36,102 nucleotides of DNA from a virus. Positions 11,397-25,394 of the stretch are shown one piece after another; positions within the stretch are counted from its first letter, which is position 1, and each line of letters begins with the position of its first letter. The DNA lies in IMG/VR virus record IMGVR_UViG_3300025921_000693, positions 1 through 36,102 of that record; one strand, written 5' to 3'. The position numbers and the translations under genes are program-made. The notes under the pieces are model-generated. The model saw nothing but the letters and a program-made list of their open reading frames with translations. It made no database searches and was not told where the DNA came from.

Positions 11397-11858
11397 CTAG
11401 GAGAACTTAACCTTATAAGTCATCGTTAATGTTTCCTGATTATTTACGGTCTTCGTCGTGGTCAGAGCACGTCCTAGCATGGTGCCAGATGAAGATGCAT
11501 TAAATATCCCAATCTCCTCAATCGCTTTTGCTCCTGATGCAGACCAGGTATAGGTAAGCTGAAGGGTATCGTTTGTCTGTGTCGTAGTGACCCGTGATAC
11601 GGTTGCTGCCGCACGCGCAAGGCCTGTATCTACGATTTCCGCTACAAGCGTTGTCTGTGCTGCCGAGAACGCTGTGTTAGAGGTTCCAACAGCTAAATAT
11701 GTAAATGCTGTTACCGCACCAGTATTGCCAGCCAATCCAGCGAGAGCAGCAAAACCGGCGTTTGTAATACCATTGCGCACTTTCTTCCTCCATCTCAAAT
11801 TGCCGTTTTTGTCTCGGCATTCAAGCGTTACGAATCCCTGTACCTTAATTGCTTTCAT
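11397..11858 (-). CDS. Phage structural protein of the NAGFAALAGL type (153 aa)
   Basis: The N-terminus resembles a short beta module (GFVTLECRDKNGNLRW). It is followed by ITNAGFAALAGLAG, YLAVGTS, an ARAAATVSRVTT strand and a C-terminal LTMTYKVKFS. I recognise this arrangement from small tail-associated proteins in many tailed phages, but cannot name a verified family. It follows the connector gene with a four-base overlap, consistent with a head-tail or tail-surface role. Confidence 0.6.
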   Translation of the reverse strand: MKAIKVQGFVTLECRDKNGNLRWRKKVRNGITNAGFAALAGLAGNTGAVTAFTYLAVGTSNTAFSAAQTTLVAEIVDTGLARAAATVSRVTTTQTNDTLQLTYTWSASGAKAIEEIGIFNASSSGTMLGRALTTTKTVNNQETLTMTYKVKFS

Positions 11859-12631
11859 CTGAAGTTATATTTCTTTGTTGATAGGCGCACATGGTCGTCC
11901 TTCTCCCTTAGCGTGTAGTCATCGATAAGCCTTTGCTCCGCCTCGTCGATCATCGCCAATAGGCCAGTCTTAAAACCTCCCCTCATCACCCCACCGGCTA
12001 CAGGTAAAGAGTTTGCTAGGGCGTAGTCTTTGGCAGCTCTGAGGGCCACAAGGCGGTGGTGGAGCGAGTTGAAACCAGGCACTTTAGTCGTGTCTGAGGA
12101 TGTGAAATATGAAGGTGGGCGCTGGAACCAAACTTTTAGGCCATTGGTAGAGGTTACCGAGGTCGCCAGGGGCTTAGGATAGAGGAACACGCTGTTTGCC
12201 TGGGCATCGTAGTACATGGGCAGGCCGGCTGTTTTGAGAAAATCGGTGAGAGACTGGTCATAGATATCCGCCTGGTCAATTGGCTTAAGCTTGTTCCAGT
12301 TCCCTGCTGCATCAAGCACCTCTACTCTGAGAATCTTTAGGAAAGTGACGGGAAAACTGTAGTCCTGCTGTTCAGAACCCAGGGTCGTAACAAGGTTCGC
12401 CGTAGCAATCGGGTAGTCAGTATTGTTGTTGTCATCCCACTGCCAGCGACCATCTGTCTGCATGATGAGGGAAGCAACACTGTTGAGCGCTTCATTAAGA
12501 AGGCGAGTGAAGGTAGCGAGAAGGTTTGTGTCGCCGGATATACGTCCATACCCACTATCTCCAAAGATAATCTGCTCACATTCCTGTATTAGTCCGTTTT
12601 TTGTGCTCGTATCGCTGAATTGGAGACTCAT
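11855..12631 (-). CDS. Head-tail connector/adaptor-like protein (258 aa)
   Basis: The N-terminal half is helical with an acidic-aromatic stretch (GRWQWDDNNN). The middle holds the pattern FLKILRVEVLDAAGNW...LPMYYDAQANSVFLYPKP, which I recognise from connector or adaptor proteins that sit below the portal. The C-terminal half is helical (RLVALRAAKDYALA). The start is set at the ATG at 12631. A GTG at 12652 would add seven residues, but it lies inside the leader element shared with the portal gene. It heads the 12.6-1 kb late block and is divergent from the plus-strand gene at 12823. Confidence 0.6.
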   Translation of the reverse strand: MSLQFSDTSTKNGLIQECEQIIFGDSGYGRISGDTNLLATFTRLLNEALNSVASLIMQTDGRWQWDDNNNTDYPIATANLVTTLGSEQQDYSFPVTFLKILRVEVLDAAGNWNKLKPIDQADIYDQSLTDFLKTAGLPMYYDAQANSVFLYPKPLATSVTSTNGLKVWFQRPPSYFTSSDTTKVPGFNSLHHRLVALRAAKDYALANSLPVAGGVMRGGFKTGLLAMIDEAEQRLIDDYTLREKDDHVRLSTKKYNFR

Positions 12632-12694
12632 TACCCACAAAACTACATACACTGCACAAATCAGCGGGATCTGTTGTCACTAAAGGCTAGAAAT
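12632..12694 (-). promoter_or_regulatory. Leader element of the connector gene, shared with portal
   Basis: On the minus strand ATTTCTA (12694-12688), then 32 bases, GCAGTGTA (12655-12648), 16 bases, ATG. The copy before the portal gene has the same blocks with 31 and 16 bases. A short hairpin (12666-12662 with 12654-12650, one G.U pair) precedes the start codon. It could be a phage promoter with untranslated leader or a translational operator. No clear sigma-70 -10/-35 pair is visible. Confidence 0.45.
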
Positions 12695-12750
12695 ACCCTT
12701 ATTTATGGCCGTGCTTTATCCTTTAGGGTTGCCATCTGGGGACAGCATGC

Positions 12751-12822: not shown

Positions 12823-13452
12823 ATGAAAAAAAACCTTATTTCTGGCCTTATTTTGGGATCGGTACTCTTTCCCAGTCTGTCGATGGCCCAGACTGTAGAT
12901 ACTTCCCCCGCGACTTCGGCTCAGATTGACGATATCAAAAATACCCTTATTGCGCTTTTAACTCAGATGATCGCATCATTGCAGGCCCAGATTAACCAAA
13001 TTATTGCCCAGCAATCACCCCAGGCGGTCACTGCACCAAGCACCAATAGTATAGGTGGAGCGGATACAGTCGCTCAAAACCCGTTCACTATTTCACTCGG
13101 TGCAATTACCTGTCCGCAACCTGGAACAGAGGGTTATGATTCTGAGATAGAAATCCCGATAGTTTCTACAAGTCAGTGGAACAAATTGGATTTCTCGTTT
13201 GATGATTACCAGAGAATTGTAGTGAACGGCTCTCTGGTAATCGCAGGCCGTCCCCCAATGGTGACTCGTGTACAAACGAAGAGGAGCTATCCTTCAAAAT
13301 ACCAAGACATCTACCTAGAAAACGTACCTGGTGACTACCACATTTCCGGCACTGCCTACGATGTGAACGGCAACAATCTCGGTTCTTTCTCACAGACTGT
13401 CACTGTTGGTACAGAGTGTCCAAGCTCAGGTGTGCTCTACTCTGCTAACTAA
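12823..13452 (+). CDS. Secreted protein with coiled-coil stalk; lone plus-strand gene
   Basis: A 209-aa protein. Residues 1-23 form a Sec signal peptide ending SLSMAQ. Residues about 30-67 are an Ile/Gln/Ala-rich helix (LLTQMIASLQAQINQIIAQQ), then a short Ser/Thr linker. The C-terminal 110 residues are a beta-sandwich-like domain with two cysteines (ITCPQPG near 84 and TECPS near 199) that could form a disulfide. The ATG at 12823 is chosen because it begins the signal peptide; the longer frame starts at TTG. The style matches secreted proteins I associate with Patescibacteria, so a host-derived moron is likely. It converges on the 13445 gene with an 8-bp overlap. Confidence 0.7.
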   Translation: MKKNLISGLILGSVLFPSLSMAQTVDTSPATSAQIDDIKNTLIALLTQMIASLQAQINQIIAQQSPQAVTAPSTNSIGGADTVAQNPFTISLGAITCPQPGTEGYDSEIEIPIVSTSQWNKLDFSFDDYQRIVVNGSLVIAGRPPMVTRVQTKRSYPSKYQDIYLENVPGDYHISGTAYDVNGNNLGSFSQTVTVGTECPSSGVLYSAN

Positions 13453-14560
13453 GCACAGAGTTAAGTCTGTCATTGAACTCGTCGTCGTACTGCCAATTCT
13501 CTGTGACGTGTTTATAGGCGGCTTCGCCTAGTTCTCTACGCTTGTCTGCATTAAGTATTAGCTCTTCAAGTGCCGATTCCCATTCATCGGGGCTCACAAG
13601 CAAACCAGTTTTATCGTTGGTGATGACTTCTTTACCAAAACAAGGCACATAGTACGGGTATACCCTTGAGGCTACAGTGGGTATCTTGTACATCGAGTAT
13701 TCCATGAACTTAATGTGCGACTTCGAACGTGTGAAAGCGCTGTCTACGAGCGGAGCGACACCGATGTCCCATTTCATGCCAGCGAGGTGTTTAGGGTATT
13801 CTCTGAATGTCCATGTCGAAGGCAATAGATCGGAGCGTCTTTTGGCATCATCAGAGAAACAGCTAAATAGGGCTAGGTCTTTATTTCCTATTGCGCCCAT
13901 GCTCTCGAAATACACATGTGGGTATTTGTCCATTATCTTCGCAATATGAGGGAGTAACATCGCAAGGTCGTCTTGATGGGAGTTTGATCCCGAGTAGCCA
14001 ATCACTACTTTATCCTTATTCTTAGCCGTAGCTTTGTAGTTCCAGTCTCGTTTGTCGTTCATGTTTGGTACGACCACTATCTTTTTATCGAGCCCATGGA
14101 CTTTCTTCATATGAGCATGAAGCATCTGTTTGAGAGGTTCGGTGGATACAGTGATAACATCGGCAAATGACAGAATCGTAGAGGTGATAGCGCGATTTTT
14201 CTTCGTCTCCTTCATTACGTCGTAAAGTGGGTGTGAAGGGAGAATCGATAAGTAGTCATCATCAAGGTCTACGACCACCTTTTTCTTGTACTTGTCTCTG
14301 TGGTAAAACATGCACGACGCCTCCTCTGCATCGTAAAAGTAGGTAGTCCAAAACACATCATTCTCTTTGAATATTCTCGACCATTTCTGTTCTTGGGATT
14401 CTCCCTTTTTGCCAAGCCCTGTACCTACTACTTCTACTTCGTGACCTTTGATGAACTTCGAAGGATTTATGATGCGATAATACCCCACTCCACCATATCC
14501 ATCTTCCATTCGGCGGTTTACATTGGCGTTCCAGTCGTTTCTATAAAATAGTATTTTCAT
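13445..14560 (-). CDS. GT4-like glycosyltransferase (371 aa)
   Basis: A GT-B type family-4 transferase. The donor-binding half contains VIGYSGSNSHQDD (residues about 187-199) and the Glu-containing segment SHIKFMEYSMYKIPTVAS (about 284-301), the usual EX7E-like region. The C-terminus carries the LILNADKRRELGEAA helix. The N-terminal half begins MKILFYRND and includes YGGVGYYRI. It would move a sugar from a nucleotide donor to a glycan or protein acceptor. It is the last gene of the sugar cassette and overlaps the preceding gene by ATGA. Confidence 0.85.
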   Translation of the reverse strand: MKILFYRNDWNANVNRRMEDGYGGVGYYRIINPSKFIKGHEVEVVGTGLGKKGESQEQKWSRIFKENDVFWTTYFYDAEEASCMFYHRDKYKKKVVVDLDDDYLSILPSHPLYDVMKETKKNRAITSTILSFADVITVSTEPLKQMLHAHMKKVHGLDKKIVVVPNMNDKRDWNYKATAKNKDKVVIGYSGSNSHQDDLAMLLPHIAKIMDKYPHVYFESMGAIGNKDLALFSCFSDDAKRRSDLLPSTWTFREYPKHLAGMKWDIGVAPLVDSAFTRSKSHIKFMEYSMYKIPTVASRVYPYYVPCFGKEVITNDKTGLLVSPDEWESALEELILNADKRRELGEAAYKHVTENWQYDDEFNDRLNSVLS

Positions 14561-15198
14561 TTCTTTTCATTAAAATTACCTTCGAAGTTCTGGTGGAGGT
14601 ACATTTCCACAATATCTCCAAACCAAGCCCTCCCCTTACCATCTTCGGCCCAATAATCACGTATCTCGTTCACTACTACACCCGCTTTATCTACAGCAGG
14701 CATAAGGGATAACTGATCTCTGCGTGAGAACCTGCAAAAGTCTGCCCACCAAGCCTCGTTAAATGCCTGAGTGCGTGCATTATTCCTACGTACGATGAAT
14801 CCGCCTTGTAAAAGGCCCTTCTTCTTTCCATAGTGGTGATCTTCGTAGTATTTAGCCTGTTCGATGATAGTTTCTACATTGTCTAGGCCAAGCTTGGCGA
14901 CCTCCATTGCCTCATCATATACACAATCTCTTACTCCGTGACTAAATAAAGCCATATCGTACCCCTTCATATACCGCTTAATTATCTCCTCTGGGGAGAT
15001 AAGGAGTTTCATATTCCCATCAATGTAGATGGTATACTCATCGTCGAAGTATTTGTGAGAGAGAATCTTTTGGATGCGCGAGTTCCTGCGAGGGTCTTTG
15101 AACTTATCATAGGCGTCCTCAAACACCTTAATAGGCCAATTTTGTGCTACTGGCTTGTCTTTTCCTCCTGTAATGACTGTGTAGAGACTAATAGTCAT
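14557..15198 (-). CDS. TOD1/MUCI70-like (DUF616) glycosyltransferase
   Basis: The protein carries the family hallmarks. There is an N-terminal VITGGKDKP start, a DEYTIYIDGNMKL segment (about 53-65) that provides the DxD-like metal site, a QGGFIVRRN strand and RRDQLSLMPA near residue 160. The family is a compact GT-A type transferase often found in polysaccharide clusters and in phages. Acceptor and sugar are unknown. The start at 15198 overlaps the previous gene by 11 bases. Confidence 0.75.
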   Translation of the reverse strand: MTISLYTVITGGKDKPVAQNWPIKVFEDAYDKFKDPRRNSRIQKILSHKYFDDEYTIYIDGNMKLLISPEEIIKRYMKGYDMALFSHGVRDCVYDEAMEVAKLGLDNVETIIEQAKYYEDHHYGKKKGLLQGGFIVRRNNARTQAFNEAWWADFCRFSRRDQLSLMPAVDKAGVVVNEIRDYWAEDGKGRAWFGDIVEMYLHQNFEGNFNEKK

Positions 15199-15382
15199 AG
15201 TTTCTTTCCATACTAAAGCCTATAGCGGGTGCGTTATCTTTACTTTGTTGCTCTATCCATTTGTCATCTAGCCATGCATCATCTGGCTCAAACTTCTTAT
15301 CTAATTTGATAGCCTGTTTGGCACTTACAGCCATAATGTACTTCCTCACAATATACCTTTTCTCTAGTGGTTTTTTCTTCAT
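15188..15382 (-). CDS. Small basic/acidic hypothetical protein (64 aa)
   Basis: The N-terminus is basic (MKKKPLEKRYIVRKYIMA), followed by SAKQAIKLDKK and an acidic DDAWLDDKW segment. The pattern resembles small phage proteins of unknown function with an IVRKY...A.S..EAI core. It is embedded in the sugar cassette with overlaps on both sides, so it may serve a transferase as a partner. No catalytic residues are apparent. Confidence 0.55.
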   Translation of the reverse strand: MKKKPLEKRYIVRKYIMAVSAKQAIKLDKKFEPDDAWLDDKWIEQQSKDNAPAIGFSMERNYDY

Positions 15383-16185
15383 CTTAGTGTTGCAAGTATT
15401 TCTTTAGCCTTGTCCGCAAATATTGTTTTAGGAGAAAACCCGAACATCTCTTGAGCCTTGAAGCTATCGGCCCATGATTCTTTTATTTCATTACTAGGCA
15501 TCTCGACATATTTCTTCTCAACATCAAAGAGATTAGCCACTTCGTTAAGAGACACCGGCATCTCACTTCCGAAGTTGTAGGTGTCGTTAGTGGGTCGCTT
15601 CTCAATGACGTTGATAATTCCATCTACGAGATCGCCGACATATGTATAGCCTCGCTTTGAGTTCCCGTCTCCTCTAATCTCTATCGGCCCGACCCTAGAT
15701 TGTTCAGCCCACTTGTATATCACTTGTTCTTTCCTACCGTTTTCTCCGTAGACGTTAAATGGGCGAACTATGGTGTAAGGAATACCAGACATTTTCACGA
15801 GCATTTCGCCAGTAAGTTTTGTCATACCATAGAGCGAAGTCGGTTCGGTAGGCGTTACTTCAGAGTTTGGTGGGTTTTGATCGCCGTACACGGATGCCGA
15901 AGAGAAGAATATAAAGTGCTTAGGGCCAGTTTTGAGAAGGTTGAGCGTGCCAATGGTATTGGTCAGGATGTAGGCATCTGGGTCTTTCTGGCCTCCTCCA
16001 ACACCCGCGAGAGCTGCGAGATGCACGACAGTATCTATATCTTTAAGTTTCTCCTCGCAAGTCGCCTTATCTCGGATGTCATGGCCTTCTCGTAGGTCAA
16101 AACCCCTCCATTCTAGCCCTCTCTCATCGAGTGCCTTAGTGAGATGCTTCCCTATGAATCCTAAGTGTCCGGTTACAAGTATCAT
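15379..16185 (-). CDS. NAD(P)-dependent sugar epimerase/dehydratase (extended SDR)
   Basis: A Rossmann nucleotide-binding motif GHLGFIG lies at residues 6-12. There is a conserved HLAA near 54, and a catalytic Ser-Tyr-Lys set with FFSSASVYG (about 93-101) and YGMTK (about 118-122). The segment RPFNVYGENG follows. At 268 aa it is shorter than most UDP-glucose 4-epimerases (about 310-340) but keeps the full active site. It probably converts a nucleotide sugar for the neighbouring transferases; the exact substrate cannot be read. It is coupled to the aminotransferase gene by ATGA. Confidence 0.85.
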   Translation of the reverse strand: MILVTGHLGFIGKHLTKALDERGLEWRGFDLREGHDIRDKATCEEKLKDIDTVVHLAALAGVGGGQKDPDAYILTNTIGTLNLLKTGPKHFIFFSSASVYGDQNPPNSEVTPTEPTSLYGMTKLTGEMLVKMSGIPYTIVRPFNVYGENGRKEQVIYKWAEQSRVGPIEIRGDGNSKRGYTYVGDLVDGIINVIEKRPTNDTYNFGSEMPVSLNEVANLFDVEKKYVEMPSNEIKESWADSFKAQEMFGFSPKTIFADKAKEILATLR

Positions 16186-17024
16186 ATCCTTTTATATGTG
16201 TACTTAGAGTAATGTAGGGCTTTAGGTGACTGACATTTTCCTCCGTACATAGGAAAGGTAGAGAGCGGCTTAAAGAACTTCCTATCGCCACCATCCATCG
16301 GAAATGGCAAAACCCACACCGCATCAAGCCAATTCTTCCCGTACTCCTCCCTTTCAATTCTCCTCCGCCGGCTGTTTTCCTTTGGGTAATTCTTTAAGCT
16401 CTTGAGAGCTAATTTCGCTTGAGAGTTGGGCATCCTGTAGTTGAAGCCTATCTCCTCGTGGTAATAGTCATGCTTGGTGCCGAACGCCATGTTCTTGAGG
16501 TAATTCATTCTCTCGGCGTACTTCCTATTGTCTGTTGTGGCGATACCTCCCTCTTCGGCATGAATTATCTTGTTTTCATAGAAGGAATAGCAGGTAATGT
16601 CGGCCTTGGACTTGTACACAGCACCCTGAGCCTCACAAGCATCCTCAATGACCTTTAACCTATGTTTCTTGGCGATCCGCATTATCTCCTTCATATTGCA
16701 CAGGCGGCCGTAGATATGCACCGCCATAATAGCTTTAGTTTTAGCCGTTATTTTGGCTTCGATGAGCTTGGGATCAATACACAGAGTGTCGTCACAATCA
16801 ACAAAAACGGGAGTAGCGCCAGTATACGAAACAGCGAAGCCACACGCAGCCATTGTGAAGTCGGGTATGATGACTTCGTCTCCTGAGCCGATGCCAAGAG
16901 CCAAGAGTGCAAGGTGCAAAGCCGACGTACCAGAATTACATGACACCGCATATTTAGCGCCTGTAAACTTTGCATATTCTTTTTCTAAGAGTTTATAAGG
17001 TTCCATAGTCCCATCTGCATCCAT
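16182..17024 (-). CDS. Short DegT/DnrJ/EryC1-type PLP aminotransferase
   Basis: A sugar aminotransferase fold. CNSGTSALHLALLALGIG (about 29-46) and GDEVIIPDF form the cofactor phosphate pocket. VIEDACEAQGA holds the Asp that pairs with the pyridine ring. FYENKIIHAEEGG (about 149-161) carries the Schiff-base lysine. It would transfer an amino group to a keto-sugar nucleotide. Classical members are about 370 aa; this one lacks some 90 residues at the ends. An internal ATG at 17006 (MEPYKLL) is an alternative start. The start overlaps the preceding gene by 32 bases. Confidence 0.8.
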   Translation of the reverse strand: MDADGTMEPYKLLEKEYAKFTGAKYAVSCNSGTSALHLALLALGIGSGDEVIIPDFTMAACGFAVSYTGATPVFVDCDDTLCIDPKLIEAKITAKTKAIMAVHIYGRLCNMKEIMRIAKKHRLKVIEDACEAQGAVYKSKADITCYSFYENKIIHAEEGGIATTDNRKYAERMNYLKNMAFGTKHDYYHEEIGFNYRMPNSQAKLALKSLKNYPKENSRRRRIEREEYGKNWLDAVWVLPFPMDGGDRKFFKPLSTFPMYGGKCQSPKALHYSKYTYKRI

Positions 17025-17952
17025 TCTCGTAGTAGTAATCGATAGTCTTCTTGAGAGCTTGTTCGAGTGTGGTCTTAGGTCTTGTCTCTATGACCGAGTA
17101 GAGCTTCGCGTTGTCAGACTGCAGGTGCCATATCTCCCACGGGCGTACTCTCGCCGGGTCTACCTCAATGTCCACCTCAGTGTCCATGATGTTGCCGATC
17201 ATCTTGGCGAGTTCGTAGATGGTTACGCCATCCTCGCTTCCCATGTTGTATACTTCGCCAAACTGCCCCTTCTCTAAAAGCTCCACGGCCATCCGTACGG
17301 CATCCCCTGCATACTGAAAGTCTCTAAATGAGTTATTACCAAGTTTTATCTTTGACCCTTTAGCAAGCTGTTCGATGATGACTGGTACGACGTACTCATG
17401 TGTCTCGCGCTCACCGAGGCAATTGAACTGACGCATTGCTATAACGGGTGTTCCCGCCTCGCGCCAACGTGCTTGCACGGCGTAGTCTATAGCAGCCTTT
17501 GCCACTCCGTAGGTTGAGTGCGGGTGTACTTGGGCATCCTCGTTAATCTTTCCGTCTACATTGCCATATATCTCTGCGCTCGAAACTTGTAGGATGCCCT
17601 TTACTCCTGCATCCTGCGCGGCGTTCATCACTTTCAGTGCCCCGAAAGCGTTGATGTTAAAGACATGCAGTGGGCGCTCAAACGACACTGGGATATACGG
17701 CTCGGCGGCGTAATTAAAGACAAACTCCGTGCCATGATGTTCAAATATCTTTCTTAACTGGTCTTCTGAACCGGTAATATCAAACCATTCAAACTTAGCT
17801 TTAGGATGAACAAACTTCTTATGGCCTGAGATGAGGTTATCAAGCACCAAAACATCGCAGTTCCTATCATCTATGAGGTGGTCTACGAGATGAGAGCCGA
17901 GGAATCCAGCTCCACCTATCACACACACTTTGCTGTTTCGTATTTCTATCAT
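16993..17952 (-). CDS. NAD-dependent sugar epimerase/dehydratase (extended SDR)
   Basis: A 319-aa extended short-chain dehydrogenase/reductase. GGAGFLGSH lies at residues 13-21, NYAAE near 80, QVSSAEIYG near 120 and YGVAK near 145 (Tyr and Lys catalytic). The C-terminal helix reads TIDYYYENGCRWDYG. It resembles nucleotide-sugar 4,6-dehydratases and epimerases; the substrate is not certain. The ATG at 17952 overlaps the preceding TGA (ATGA), which sets the start three codons inside the longest frame. Together with the nucleotidyltransferase and aminotransferase it could make an amino-deoxysugar. Confidence 0.85.
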   Translation of the reverse strand: MIEIRNSKVCVIGGAGFLGSHLVDHLIDDRNCDVLVLDNLISGHKKFVHPKAKFEWFDITGSEDQLRKIFEHHGTEFVFNYAAEPYIPVSFERPLHVFNINAFGALKVMNAAQDAGVKGILQVSSAEIYGNVDGKINEDAQVHPHSTYGVAKAAIDYAVQARWREAGTPVIAMRQFNCLGERETHEYVVPVIIEQLAKGSKIKLGNNSFRDFQYAGDAVRMAVELLEKGQFGEVYNMGSEDGVTIYELAKMIGNIMDTEVDIEVDPARVRPWEIWHLQSDNAKLYSVIETRPKTTLEQALKKTIDYYYENGCRWDYGTL

Positions 17953-18425
17953 TTCGTACAAATTAAAGTAATGTCCCTATCTGGTCTGTTGTGTAAGCCG
18001 CCTTTCGAAACAACGACTCGCTTAAATCCCGCCTCCTTGAGCAACGGCTTGAGGGTTTTTGCTGTCCAAGACCACTTGTGCCCCGCAGTAGCTCCATAGC
18101 CGAACATCTGGTCTACTCGTTCTGGGTCACTGAGTATCATTTCAGCAATCCTTAAGGCGTCTGAAGTTTCAATAATTAGCTCTCCTTTAGGCTTGAGCCA
18201 TTTGTAACATCTCTTAAAGAGTTTTCGTGCCTCGCTGGGTGTCACATACATAAGAAAGTGACAGACGAGCACCTCATTGAACTGGGAGGCCTTAAAACTG
18301 ACTTTAAGCACATCAGCTTTCTTATCTACCTTTTGTCCCGGGTTCATGGAGAGATTGTCCACGTTCAAGTATCCTTTCATATACATCCTCCCAGAAGCGA
18401 GATTTACTTTAGTAGCTTTTTCCAT
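17949..18425 (-). CDS. Class I SAM-dependent methyltransferase (short, 158 aa)
   Basis: KVNLASGRMYMKGYLNVD at the N-terminus is the motif I plus acidic motif II arrangement of small Rossmann methyltransferases found in glycan clusters. LVCHFLMYVTPSEARKLF and WLKPKGELIIETSD are motif IV to post-motif strands. It may methylate a sugar or a glycosyl chain end. The ATG at 18425 is chosen for the family-like N-terminus; it overlaps the preceding gene by 22 bases. Confidence 0.75.
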   Translation of the reverse strand: MEKATKVNLASGRMYMKGYLNVDNLSMNPGQKVDKKADVLKVSFKASQFNEVLVCHFLMYVTPSEARKLFKRCYKWLKPKGELIIETSDALRIAEMILSDPERVDQMFGYGATAGHKWSWTAKTLKPLLKEAGFKRVVVSKGGLHNRPDRDITLICTK

Positions 18426-19255
18426 ATCTTTACGTGTTCCTTTGCGTACTTCTTCCACGTCCAGTCCCCTACTCTATTCTCTGAGAGCTTTCTGAAGATT
18501 TCGTTGAGCTCTTCCTGCGTGTCAAACTCATAATCAAGTCCAATATCAAGATGGAATCCTTGAGGGGTGGAGATAGTTTTCAGACCGGCATTAGTGGCAT
18601 CGAGAATGGCCATCGAACCCTCGTCCTTACCGAAATAGAGACAATAATCCGATGATTCGAGGATTCTCTGATGATTCTCGGGATCAAACTCAGCGAAATA
18701 GTCCACCTGCAAACCCTTGGCAACCAGAGGAACTAGGATGTCATGCCAGCCCGTTCCCATGATACGAAAGGCCCATTGGTTAAGGTCGAGTGTCTTCACT
18801 AGTTCGGTAAACATCTCCTCCCTTTTACACCCGTCTGGGTAGACATTCGTTAAAATAGCCACTACTTGGAATCTGCGTGGCTTTGCATCGTGTGCCGGTA
18901 GCACATAGGTGAGCTTTTTCTTGTCTATCCCCTTCTTTATGAGTTGTCTAGGAAGCTCTGAGGACATGCAGATGCCCATGTCAGCGCTCTGGTCATGGTC
19001 GCCAAGGCTCTCCTTGAGCGAATCAAGCTTATAGCCGTCCCATATGTGGGTGACCATAAGCGTGTTAATAGTCTTCGAGTGCTTATACGGAAGGTAGTTA
19101 ATGTGGTGGTTCACATCAGCACTCGGGTCGGGAACGTTGCCAATAGATACCTCTATCCCCTTGATCTTCTCAAGTTCGTCATACATCCTCCGAGCAAACT
19201 TCGAGAGTATGCCGTCGTTAAATGCCTGCTCGTAATTTACTAGGTGAACTTTCAT
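18404..19255 (-). CDS. GT4-like glycosyltransferase (283 aa)
   Basis: GT-B like protein with an N-terminal MKVHLVNYEQAFNDGIL segment similar to acceptor domains. LMVTHIWDGY lies near 67, a central AFRIMGTGWH strand near 163, and a donor-site region DYCLYFGKDEGSMAILDATNAG (about 203-224) with the Glu residues expected at the sugar-nucleotide site. Length is short for the family. Sugar and acceptor are unknown. It overlaps the nucleotidyltransferase gene by four bases, placing it in the same translation-coupled unit. Confidence 0.75.
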   Translation of the reverse strand: MKVHLVNYEQAFNDGILSKFARRMYDELEKIKGIEVSIGNVPDPSADVNHHINYLPYKHSKTINTLMVTHIWDGYKLDSLKESLGDHDQSADMGICMSSELPRQLIKKGIDKKKLTYVLPAHDAKPRRFQVVAILTNVYPDGCKREEMFTELVKTLDLNQWAFRIMGTGWHDILVPLVAKGLQVDYFAEFDPENHQRILESSDYCLYFGKDEGSMAILDATNAGLKTISTPQGFHLDIGLDYEFDTQEELNEIFRKLSENRVGDWTWKKYAKEHVKIWKKLLK

Positions 19256-20221: not shown

Positions 20222-20433
20222 TTGTCTTTAGATAACTCCTTATAAGTCTCCTGTGCGTTCGTATAGAGCATAAGACAGGCAGTAGCAATGCTCAGCACAG
20301 TCCTATCAGGCAGGGTTACTTTCGTTCCGTAGGGCTTCCCGTCGAAATCGAAGGAGTAGGCTATCTTGCCGTGTTGGTAATAGAGTTCAATTTCCTGTCC
20401 GTTTGGAAGGGTTAACTGAGATACCTTGTGCAT
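20218..20433 (-). CDS. Hypothetical 71-aa protein
   Basis: Residues about 4-35 form beta strands (LTLPNGQEIELYYQHGKIAY) and the C-terminal part is a helix with a YTNAQETYKEL end. Function unknown. The longest frame would start at 20469, but that places the start inside the terminator hairpin at 20462-20477, so a downstream ATG (20433 or 20445) is preferred. Confidence 0.5.
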   Translation of the reverse strand: MHKVSQLTLPNGQEIELYYQHGKIAYSFDFDGKPYGTKVTLPDRTVLSIATACLMLYTNAQETYKELSKDK

Positions 20434-20449
20434 TACAGTGAGCATACGT

Positions 20450-20480
20450 ACATAAAGAAAACTCCGCAAGTGCGGAGCTT
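20450..20480 (-). terminator. Rho-independent terminator behind the major capsid gene
   Basis: On the minus strand CTCCGC, loop ACTT, GCGGAG (20477-20462) is followed by TTTTCTTT. It lies 25 bases after the capsid stop codon and before the next gene, so it likely ends or attenuates the head-module transcript. Confidence 0.8.
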
Positions 20481-20501
20481 CTTTTCACACAAGAACTAAG
20501 G

Positions 20502-23086: not shown

Positions 23087-24961
23087 TTATTGATTAGTTG
23101 ATAATGCTGGCTCTGGGGCCTGGGGACTTTTAGCTTGGGGCGGCCCTCCCTGGCCGGGTTGCCCCTGAGCAAGTGTCGGAAGTTGGCCGTTATTGGTCAT
23201 CTGGGTGGCCTGCTGGTCTGCGAACTCAAGCTCTGCCGGGGAGATACCGAACTGCTCGGCTGCCTGGTTGAAGAGAAGCTTGAGTCTAGGGTCTTGGAGC
23301 ACGGCCGGGTTCTGCAACAGACCGAAGAGGAACTGAATACCACCGATCATCTTGTTAGGGTCAAGAGCTTCGTTATCAATATTGAAATCAAATTCATACT
23401 CTGCGTCCTTATAGAAGGCTTCCTTAATTTTTAAGAACCTATTTCCACCGAGCTTCCTATAGGCCTTTATAGCGTCCTGCTTCACTAGCTCTTGGAACTC
23501 AAGGTCCACCCTCTGGCCGCTCAGGACTTTCTTCTTAATTACATCGTTCACATGCACTTCTGCCGCTGCCTCATCGAGCTTGTCGAGTTCCTGTGAAGAG
23601 CCCGTGAAGCGCATGATGTGCTCAGGGGTCAAATCTCTGAGCAACTGAGGCATTACAAGGTCGTTGAAGAACGAGCGAAGGAAGATAGATAGGTTCTGTC
23701 TCTTGAAGCCGTACACTGAGGTAGCTTGGGCGACGGCAATCTGCGTAGCGCCGAGCGGTGTTGAGGAAGGAGGGGTATCGCCTCTGATCGCCTCGTATGA
23801 GAAAGTAAGCTTTTCCACCTGCTGTCCGTAGCTTTCCTCCTCTTGTTCGAATGCAGGGAGGTTTCTTTCCTCGTTCGAGACCGGCTCGATACCGTTAGGG
23901 GAGAACACAATGTCTCCGTTTTCTAGGTCTGTAAGGACATTGCGTACAAGTTGCTTATCCTTTGTTTGAAATAGATGAAGCGTGGAAAGCTCCATTGAAA
24001 GGCGCTTCTGGTTCTTGAGCTCGTTTACGCGGGTCTGTACATCGAATAGGGTCTCAACGACACCCATACCAAGCCACCTGCCTTTGATCTTGGTGTAGTG
24101 AAAGTCCTTGAATGGGTATTCTCCCTTCCACTCAGACTTAAAGAGAACCACGCCCATTTCTCCTGTTACCTGCCCCTGAGCATTCCTCTGAAGGAAATCA
24201 GGCCCTGCAACAATGAACAAAGACCGCACCATTTTGGTCGAGCTGCCACCCTTGAGCCACATTTCCGGCACTTCGCCGTAACGCTTGTAGACCTTCACTT
24301 GAGGTGAAGACCGCATGACATTGAGGTTGCCCGAGTTATCCTCGAACGCCTGAGCCGCTTGAGTGTTGCCGAAGCGCGCAATAGCCACATCCACGTCCTT
24401 CCAACCTGTCTTTCTGAGCTCGTCGTCAGACATGTAATGCACCGTAGTGATGAAGCGAGAATCCTTAGCGTTATCAACAGACGGATCAAGCATTGTCCTT
24501 CTGAGGTCACAGACTCGTGCCCCATCCTTAGTCTTCTCCAAGAGCACCGATCCATATCGAGGCGCTTCCTCAGCGATTTGGTTGAGAACGCGACCCATTT
24601 CGGAGGTCTTGAGCCACATTCGCAGTTCTTTTTCGAGAAGATATGTCGGGAAATAGGACTCTGGGTTTGTGGGGATAAGCCTAATATCCTTTGTATCGAC
24701 GTTGAGCATCTTTGTCGCCACTTCCACTGCCGGTGTCACAATATTAAAGAAAAGCTTTTCTCTACCAAGGTAAAACGCGCCATTCTCATAGCGGTTAGAG
24801 AGGTACAGGAAGATACGCTTTAATGTTTGGTACTGATTGAAGGCATACCCGGGAACAGGAGAAATAAAGTTATAGAGGAACTGGTCTGTCTCATAGCGTA
24901 TCTGCGCGAAGATGGACGACGGAGGTAGTATCGGTTGCGAGTTCGGCTGTTGCGGATTCAT
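23087..24961 (-). CDS. Portal protein (624 aa)
   Basis: The dodecameric DNA-gate subunit. The call comes from its position between TerL and scaffold/capsid, its size, and its order of features. There is an N-terminal helical region (LKRIFLYLSNRYENGAFYLG), a central beta wing with SRFITTVHYMSDDELRKTGW, and a long crown helix region. The C-terminal 40 residues are Gln/Pro-rich. The ATG at 24961 follows the shared leader element; a GTG seven codons upstream would read through that element. Short-tailed-phage portals have similar length. Confidence 0.8.
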   Translation of the reverse strand: MNPQQPNSQPILPPSSIFAQIRYETDQFLYNFISPVPGYAFNQYQTLKRIFLYLSNRYENGAFYLGREKLFFNIVTPAVEVATKMLNVDTKDIRLIPTNPESYFPTYLLEKELRMWLKTSEMGRVLNQIAEEAPRYGSVLLEKTKDGARVCDLRRTMLDPSVDNAKDSRFITTVHYMSDDELRKTGWKDVDVAIARFGNTQAAQAFEDNSGNLNVMRSSPQVKVYKRYGEVPEMWLKGGSSTKMVRSLFIVAGPDFLQRNAQGQVTGEMGVVLFKSEWKGEYPFKDFHYTKIKGRWLGMGVVETLFDVQTRVNELKNQKRLSMELSTLHLFQTKDKQLVRNVLTDLENGDIVFSPNGIEPVSNEERNLPAFEQEEESYGQQVEKLTFSYEAIRGDTPPSSTPLGATQIAVAQATSVYGFKRQNLSIFLRSFFNDLVMPQLLRDLTPEHIMRFTGSSQELDKLDEAAAEVHVNDVIKKKVLSGQRVDLEFQELVKQDAIKAYRKLGGNRFLKIKEAFYKDAEYEFDFNIDNEALDPNKMIGGIQFLFGLLQNPAVLQDPRLKLLFNQAAEQFGISPAELEFADQQATQMTNNGQLPTLAQGQPGQGGPPQAKSPQAPEPALSTNQ

Positions 24962-25023
24962 TACCGCACATAGTATGTACACTGCATAAACGCAGTGGTC
25001 TATATGCCATCTATGGTAGAAAT
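24962..25023 (-). promoter_or_regulatory. Leader element of the portal gene, shared with connector
   Basis: On the minus strand ATTTCTA (25023-25017), 31 bases, GCAGTGTA (24985-24978), 16 bases, ATG. A perfect hairpin CACTGC, GTTTAT, GCAGTG occupies 24997-24980. The same blocks and nearly the same spacing lie before the connector gene at 12631. Candidate phage promoter or translational control site. Confidence 0.5.
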
Positions 25024-25031
25024 ATGGCTAA

Positions 25032-25394
25032 CTATATGATTATTCTACTGCTGGCAGTGCCACCATTTCTGAGCTGTTTAGTGAGTTCATCCATTACATA
25101 CTGTTCGTAGGCACCAAATATCTCTGAGTTCACCATCTTTGCCCCACGCTCTAAGACCGGTCTCGTAAGCATATATATCTCACTACGCTGAATCCACCTG
25201 TCCATTGACCTATAACTAAGCCTGCGTGCGTGCTTTACGAATAGATAATCGCGCAGATCCCCATTGGAGTAGTCAAGGAGCTTGTAGCGCCTCCACAACT
25301 CCTTCCATGTGCCTTGTGGCAACAGATACTCCCTGCTGAAGCGAATATCAGGGTCTACAGTAAACAACTTTGATTGAGTAAGGTCGAGAATCAT
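25032..25394 (-). CDS. Hypothetical protein between TerL and portal (120 aa)
   Basis: Unknown helical protein, rich in Arg and aromatic residues (WKELWRRYKLLDYSNGDL, YRSMDRWIQRSEIYM). No Cys cluster or membrane segment is present. It overlaps the TerL stop by four bases, so it is made with the terminase and may be a packaging or portal accessory protein. Confidence 0.55.
   Translation of the reverse strand: MILDLTQSKLFTVDPDIRFSREYLLPQGTWKELWRRYKLLDYSNGDLRDYLFVKHARRLSYRSMDRWIQRSEIYMLTRPVLERGAKMVNSEIFGAYEQYVMDELTKQLRNGGTASSRIII

Follow-up and report, generated by a model that had tools for sequence, protein, structure and literature searches.

Twin promoter-like elements before the portal and adaptor genes of uncultured phages and a candidate helix-turn-helix activator

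Two minus-strand genes lying 12 kb apart in a 36,102-base IMG/VR virus record (the window, that is, the whole stretch of DNA analysed) carry the same leader, and this leader is part of a larger element of ~70 bp that recurs before the portal and adaptor genes of related phages. We read the pair as twin late promoters with a leaderless -10 that would be switched on, by class II activation, by a 120-aa helix-turn-helix (HTH) protein, and assign this joint reading a probability of about two in three. The element itself, its rigid spacing, its restriction to two genes, the sharing of a short tag within each phage and the co-occurrence with the gene of the 120-aa protein come directly from the computations. 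Taken as a matched pair of co-regulated late promoters, the two window leaders are well supported by their sequence as far as the promoter part is concerned. Together, the promoter element, the pair of genes it serves and the candidate activator would make a late-expression switch readable in a group of uncultured phages, most of whose early genes cannot be recognised.

Results

The shared leader belongs to a rigid three-box element

Before ATG 24961 and ATG 12631 (both minus strand) the leader consists of ATTTCTA, 30 and 31 bases, respectively, TGCAGTGTA and 16 bases ending in GTA. The initial annotation had described this layout correctly in its blocks, its 16-base gap and its GTA-ATG junction, but not in the distance from ATTTCTA to TGCAGTGTA, since the 31 and 32 bases given there are reached only when counting to GCAGTG. 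ATTTCTA occurs six times across the window, and TGCAGTGTA with at most one mismatch is found seven times compared to 7.04 expected by chance, so that the non-random part is the joint arrangement of the blocks: with zero mismatch, TGCAGTGTA-N13-GTAATG matches the portal and adaptor leaders and nothing else in the window. TGCAGTGTA, located at -25 to -17 in both window promoters (24978..24986 and 12648..12656, minus strand), is private to the window phage and is not conserved in relatives; its role is unexplained.

The genes had been named portal and connector, and both identities hold, the "connector" being an SU10-type adaptor. The portal gene (23087..24961, minus strand), the first of the head block, has homologues matching phrog_332 (head-tail adaptor family; 14 of 17) and phrog_1216 (portal family; 9 of 17), and the adaptor gene (11855..12631, minus strand), the first of the tail block, matches Pfam PF24175 through 18 of 19 homologues. 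Sequence searches of solved structures with the portal, the adaptor and the 120-aa family returned nothing useful. Between the head and tail blocks the window also contains a glycan cassette (13445-18458, minus strand) with glycosyltransferase, epimerase-like and aminotransferase-like open reading frames (ORFs), which is kept in most of the 10 relatives compared.

Relatives were gathered via their portal, adaptor and major head proteins, which gave 85 upstream regions, or 71 after removing those more than 75% identical. Upstream of the portal and adaptor start codons these relatives carry box A (TAAGSSATATWWT), box B (TNAGTG) and box C (TGnTANNNT, an extended -10), the last mostly with a gap of 6 nt to the start codon (8 nt in the window phage). 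TANNNT begins exactly at -12 before 28 of the 71 starts (dinucleotide shuffles: mean 2.8, maximum 9), GTG lies exactly at -47 before 19 (mean 1.2, maximum 5), and the two are spaced by exactly 35 before 20 (mean 0.45, maximum 4). The additional box at about -68, box A, came from an EM alignment of 51 of the 71 regions, which covered all but 13 named distant loci and short regions; 32 of the 51 have a register of 53 between boxes A and C, and in 40 box C lies 12-14 bases before the start. Where it lies at -14, as in the window, boxes A and B shift together with it, and the spacing is therefore a property of the element, not of the start codon. The bases that separate the boxes show little conservation, and within box A the G and C runs are either CC or GG, a variation that we cannot explain.

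In the portal promoter of the window (all features on the minus strand), box A (TTAGCCATATTTC, 25019..25031) directly follows the stop codon of the 120-aa gene, box B with the next 12 bases, the tag region, occupies 24996..25010 and has ATG in place of GTG, and the -10 hexamer of box C, TACTAT (24970..24975), ends 8 nt before the ATG. The adaptor promoter has box A (TAAGGGTATTTCT) at 12689..12701, box B, with GTG, and the tag region at 12666..12680 and the hexamer TAGTTT at 12640..12645, again ending 8 nt before the ATG. Both A boxes were placed by EM alignment and matrix scan, and ATTTCTA of the initial annotation overlaps their right half, whereas TGCAGTGTA has no conserved counterpart outside the window phage. 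The adaptor promoter keeps box A although a divergent plus-strand gene is located upstream. The product of that gene (12823-13452) has a signal peptide as well as a segment, LTQMIASLQAQI, that looks repeat-like; such segments are known from Patescibacteria proteins and offer a lead to the host.

The element is restricted to two genes

A composite matrix was trained on 28 sequences (spacing 53, score above 6). The two window sites, both members of the training set, score 26.7 and 25.5, the next best site in the window scores 9.5, and the top score in ten Markov copies of the window is 11.7. Across both strands of 719 kb of related loci, which come from fragmentary genomes with mechanically called gene starts and were partly used to train the matrix, all matches of at least 14 are at portal or adaptor starts and the best match elsewhere reaches 13.6, which makes the element a two-site system. 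A loose pattern match at 31778-31751 was discarded; it lies within an ORF and is missed by the matrix scan. The proposal of a candidate promoter heading two late blocks is thus borne out by a rigid three-box element at a fixed distance between -10 and start in front of both genes across relatives, and the likeness of the two leaders does go beyond shared coding, because the element recurs at the same two genes with fixed spacing in many diverged phages. The claim that the pair is unique to this phage is wrong, as it is family-wide.

More distant relatives that lack the 120-aa gene (L069 and L070) have a different paired leader at portal and adaptor, TATAAT followed by TAAGGCGG, perhaps another twin-promoter design. 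In the part of the literature that was searched, no description of the three-box element or of the 120-aa protein was found.

Transcripts are predicted to be leaderless

With 6 nt between the -10 hexamer and the start codon, the transcript should begin at the codon. The portal and adaptor mRNAs are accordingly predicted from the leaders to be leaderless or nearly so, with a start at or within about 2 bases of the start codon. TGnTANNNT at -12 is also present at 12 of the remaining 613 gene starts (mean of 0.68 and maximum of 4 in shuffles), one of which, before an HNH gene, occupies the portal position. Hence, the -10 position is general, and it is boxes A and B that mark the two late promoters. 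Shine-Dalgarno-like sequences were seen before 51 of 668 starts. The leaderless starts suggest a host that begins translation on mRNAs lacking Shine-Dalgarno leaders.

The missing Shine-Dalgarno sites had suggested a Bacteroidota promoter, an idea that was rejected: box C does not match TAnnTTTG, and Bacteroidota have few leaderless mRNAs. In the accessible part of the source, the Bacteroidota sigma-AB consensus is TAnnTTTG at -7 with TTTG near -33, and about 3.7% of the 5'UTRs of B. theta are shorter than 10 nt (PMC7366714); TAnnTTTG is present five times in the 71 regions compared to 28 occurrences of TANNNT at one position. Caldisericia was not accepted as host either, the scan of genome contigs offering a single 4-kb contig (L072) in a metagenome-assembled genome so labelled. 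tRNA-like sequences around position 4814 of L085 (minus strand; record G010) may help toward the host. A peptide initiated at the GTG of box B was dismissed as well, since by eye a stop immediately follows this GTG in L006 and L014.

A second kind of leaderless-type start, without boxes A and B, is found in the window, where TATGCT lies 7 nt before ATG 20433; the region after the major head protein gene (20433-20500, minus strand) also holds a terminator-like hairpin, CTCCGC-ACTT-GCGGAG-TTTTCTTT, and relatives have the same arrangement. At L008:7577-7963 and L039:6421-6807 (record G001) an HNH-endonuclease-like ORF is inserted between the 120-aa gene and the portal gene. The HNH start is preceded by a leader that resembles a promoter and contains TGnTANNNT (L074, position 1777, minus strand), so that the inserted ORF lies within the late unit.

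A tag after box B is shared within each phage

The 6 bp that follow box B (columns 24-29), here called the tag, are 70% identical between the two promoters of the same phage (14 pairs), while permuted pairings average about 31% and reach at most 54% in 20,000 permutations (p=5e-5). The 14 pairs represent clusters with the 120-aa gene and with A+B scores above 5 at both promoters, L006/L037 having been added in a second run; another comparison of box B and tag pairs took 12 of 17 pairs. Removing L007 and L043, one sequence cluster on two contigs, leaves 13 pairs and the result unchanged (0.705, p=5e-5). Counted by eye, at least four of the six tag bases agree in 10 of the 14 pairs, three in one pair and at most two in three pairs. 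The window pair is among these three exceptions, with two of six tag bases alike and the common TGCAGTGTA instead. Box A has no within-phage excess (0.442 versus 0.433), and identity in the columns immediately preceding GTG is close to background. Promoter duplication or gene conversion should make the entire element alike, so the confined likeness suggests a factor that reads the sequence and varies among phages. The longest tags tested (G003, G008 and G013) are found at the two promoters only in their genomes, whereas the shorter tags of other phages also occur elsewhere.

A basic HTH protein is the candidate activator

A gene for a 120-aa protein is situated between terL and the portal gene in all 10 compared genomes and is present in 42 of 117 sequence clusters. 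In the window it occupies 25032..25394 (minus strand), and its end at 25032 adjoins box A of the portal promoter at 25031, as it does in relatives. The 28 aligned family members have 118-126 residues, a net charge of +1 to +12 and a pI of 7.8-10.1 (at least 9.0 in 27 of 28). An AlphaFold2 model (pLDDT 89.2) contains an HTH with helices 44-55 and 61-82, in the second of which R66, W67 and I68 are well conserved and positions 61-63, 65 and 69 are among the most variable.

Comparison of folds gave generic HTH matches only, the best being a chain of an RNA-guided transcription complex (Z 5.3), with the DNA-binding domain of the G20C/P74-26 small terminase at Z 5.1 (rmsd 1.7 over 54 residues) and sigma -35-binding domains at Z 3.9 and below. 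Foldseek returned no match at E 0.001 or better among PDB and viral models, and Pfam and PHROG gave no consistent match for the 28 members. Choosing an activator among the early genes by conservation was abandoned, because no gene upstream of terL is common to the window and at least three of the ten relatives; Pfam matched only two methylases and, weakly, a nuclease among ten early window proteins.

With a score cut of 7.8, the portal element is present in 23 of 39 clusters with the 120-aa gene and in 2 of 56 without it, in a table that partly re-uses training sequences; outside the training clusters the numbers are 7 of 20 and 2 of 56. The two exceptions without the gene score 8.3 and 8.7, barely over the cut, and among the 39 clusters with the gene there are 16 in which no portal element passes it. 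The adaptor element is found in 13 of 21 clusters with the gene compared to 1 of 46 without, a link that is unsupported outside the training set (0 of 6 versus 1 of 46). Among close portals (at least 55%), 25 of 34 clusters with the gene have the element at portal or adaptor and neither of the two without it does; in one of these (L059), terL directly precedes the portal gene. These co-occurrences are confounded by clade, and much of them is shared ancestry.

By position, fold and co-occurrence, the 120-aa protein is the best candidate for the activator of both promoters and the reader of the tag. Covariation between the tag and the recognition helix has the expected direction but falls short of significance (partial Mantel test: p 0.054-0.085 for 21 phages; p 0.09-0.10 for 29, a number at which the comparison is underpowered). 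The family may be a new one of late activators in which HTH specificity has diverged between phages, with both target promoters of each genome changing in step and mutually exclusive pairs as the result; we propose this tentatively, at somewhat less than even odds. If true, exclusive activator/tag pairs may stop co-infecting relatives from using each other's late switch, and they would provide a natural set of orthogonal, leaderless promoter/activator pairs, useful as parts. The coupled change of two promoters per genome is also a clean natural record of the co-evolution of a regulator and its sites.

The hairpin is not a shared feature

The initial annotation placed a hairpin at both copies of the leader. 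The portal copy is indeed strong (whole leader z -2.2, 23-nt core z -3.85), but at the adaptor the whole leader has z 0.03 (core z -2.1), and the hairpin is not conserved in relatives. In a survey of 35 of the 51 elements, structure was significant in 7, a share close to the 17% found among 120 sampled heads of other operons. These controls and the two window folds rule out the hairpin as a conserved or shared feature; some element hairpins are terminator-like and may close the upstream unit.

Discussion

Proposed mechanism and alternatives

In the proposed mechanism, host RNA polymerase would bind the extended -10 of box C, while the phage-encoded activator would bind box B and the tag at about -47 to -36 (centre about -41.5) and probably also box A near -62, about 21 bp or two helical turns farther up. 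The bound activator would contact the polymerase and stand in for a -35 element, so that, once the 120-aa protein has been made, the blocks that begin with portal (head) and adaptor (tail) would be switched on at the same time. In this scheme the transcription start, the binding to DNA, the activation and the role of the 120-aa protein as tag reader are predictions from sequence and fold.

The same promoter pair might have its tag read by another factor, be it an early protein that evolves fast, a regulator of the host or an RNA-guided sigma complex, with the 120-aa protein a mere neighbour. The lack of significant covariation between tag and recognition helix and the divergence of the early genes, which are too diverged to trace, are consistent with such a reader, and so is the best fold match, the RNA-guided complex chain; complexes of this kind start transcription at a fixed distance from their target. 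We nevertheless consider it unlikely, because gene and element co-occur and are lost together and the gene directly precedes the portal promoter. An RNA guide is further disfavoured by the shortness of the tested tags, those of G003, G008 and G013 having no third copy on the contig as a possible guide. The presence of the gene beside terL, together with the G20C/P74-26 domain among its best fold matches, at a Z similar to that of sigma-like domains, would also suit a small terminase (TerS) whose recognition site is box B and tag, making the elements packaging or replication signals. However, a separate TerS lies directly upstream of terL in two genomes that also have the 120-aa gene (PF03592 in G001, PF16677 in G010), so the 120-aa protein is not simply TerS, even though no separate small terminase was recognised in the window, and a pair of sites separated by 11-12 kb, each at a fixed distance from a -10 and a start codon, suits promoters; we regard this reading as very improbable.

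The initial annotation had also proposed a translational operator. On this reading, transcription would come from farther upstream, and a protein or structure at a 5'UTR hairpin would govern the translation of portal and adaptor. The stable hairpin of the window portal copy and those of some relatives (L014, L015 and L009) favour it, and box B itself could be near a transcription start. With structure about as frequent in the elements as at other operon heads, an unstable adaptor copy and no Rfam match in the window, this proposal is not supported and is improbable; moreover, the sequence and place of the hairpin vary, and fixed spacing over unconserved sequence suits DNA-bound proteins better. 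Finally, the chance-level count of TGCAGTGTA and the six copies of ATTTCTA would be expected if unrelated leaders were alike by chance or shared a coding constraint, an explanation of negligible probability that is excluded by the family-wide counts, the element recurring at the same two genes of diverged phages with fixed spacing.

Comparison with known systems

The proposed activation of twin promoters by the 120-aa protein has its closest likeness in RinA and Ltr/LtrC of staphylococcal phages and Alt of lactococcal TP901-1. As far as the accessible part of the source describes them, these are small basic proteins encoded directly upstream of the late promoter, with a bound region upstream that extends to about -32 to -42 relative to the start site and a -10 that is present while the late genes remain silent without the activator (PMC13123087). 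The small basic 120-aa protein and the place of its gene directly before the portal promoter, which it would regulate, resemble what is described there. We propose that it works like the Ltr/RinA/Alt regulators, an analogy of function and position without a family match: the 28 members have no sequence homology to the known Ltr/RinA/ArpU families in Pfam and PHROG. In the Ltr/RinA/Alt systems, again as far as the source describes them, one promoter before the packaging genes is served from repeats. Here, in contrast, the gene follows terL, two promoters (portal and adaptor) each have one box B with tag and a box A, and the transcripts are predicted to be leaderless.

Class II activation is known from CRP at -41.5, lambda cI at PRM and Mor/C of phage Mu. 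The proposed site resembles it in its centre at about -41.5, adjoining a -35 region that is weak or absent, with the difference that the geometry is deduced from the letters of the DNA, assuming a start at the start codon. In P2/P4, Ogr/Delta switch on dispersed late promoters together through a common upstream activator site. The present phages likewise have multiple dispersed late promoters with a common upstream site; Ogr sites lie near -55 and are conserved between phages, whereas each of the present phages tends to have a tag of its own, and the candidate protein has an HTH rather than a zinc finger. With leaderless promoters such as those of mycobacteria the element has in common a -10 about 6 nt before the start codon and the absence of a Shine-Dalgarno sequence, and it would differ from the known examples as a phage late promoter with added activator boxes.
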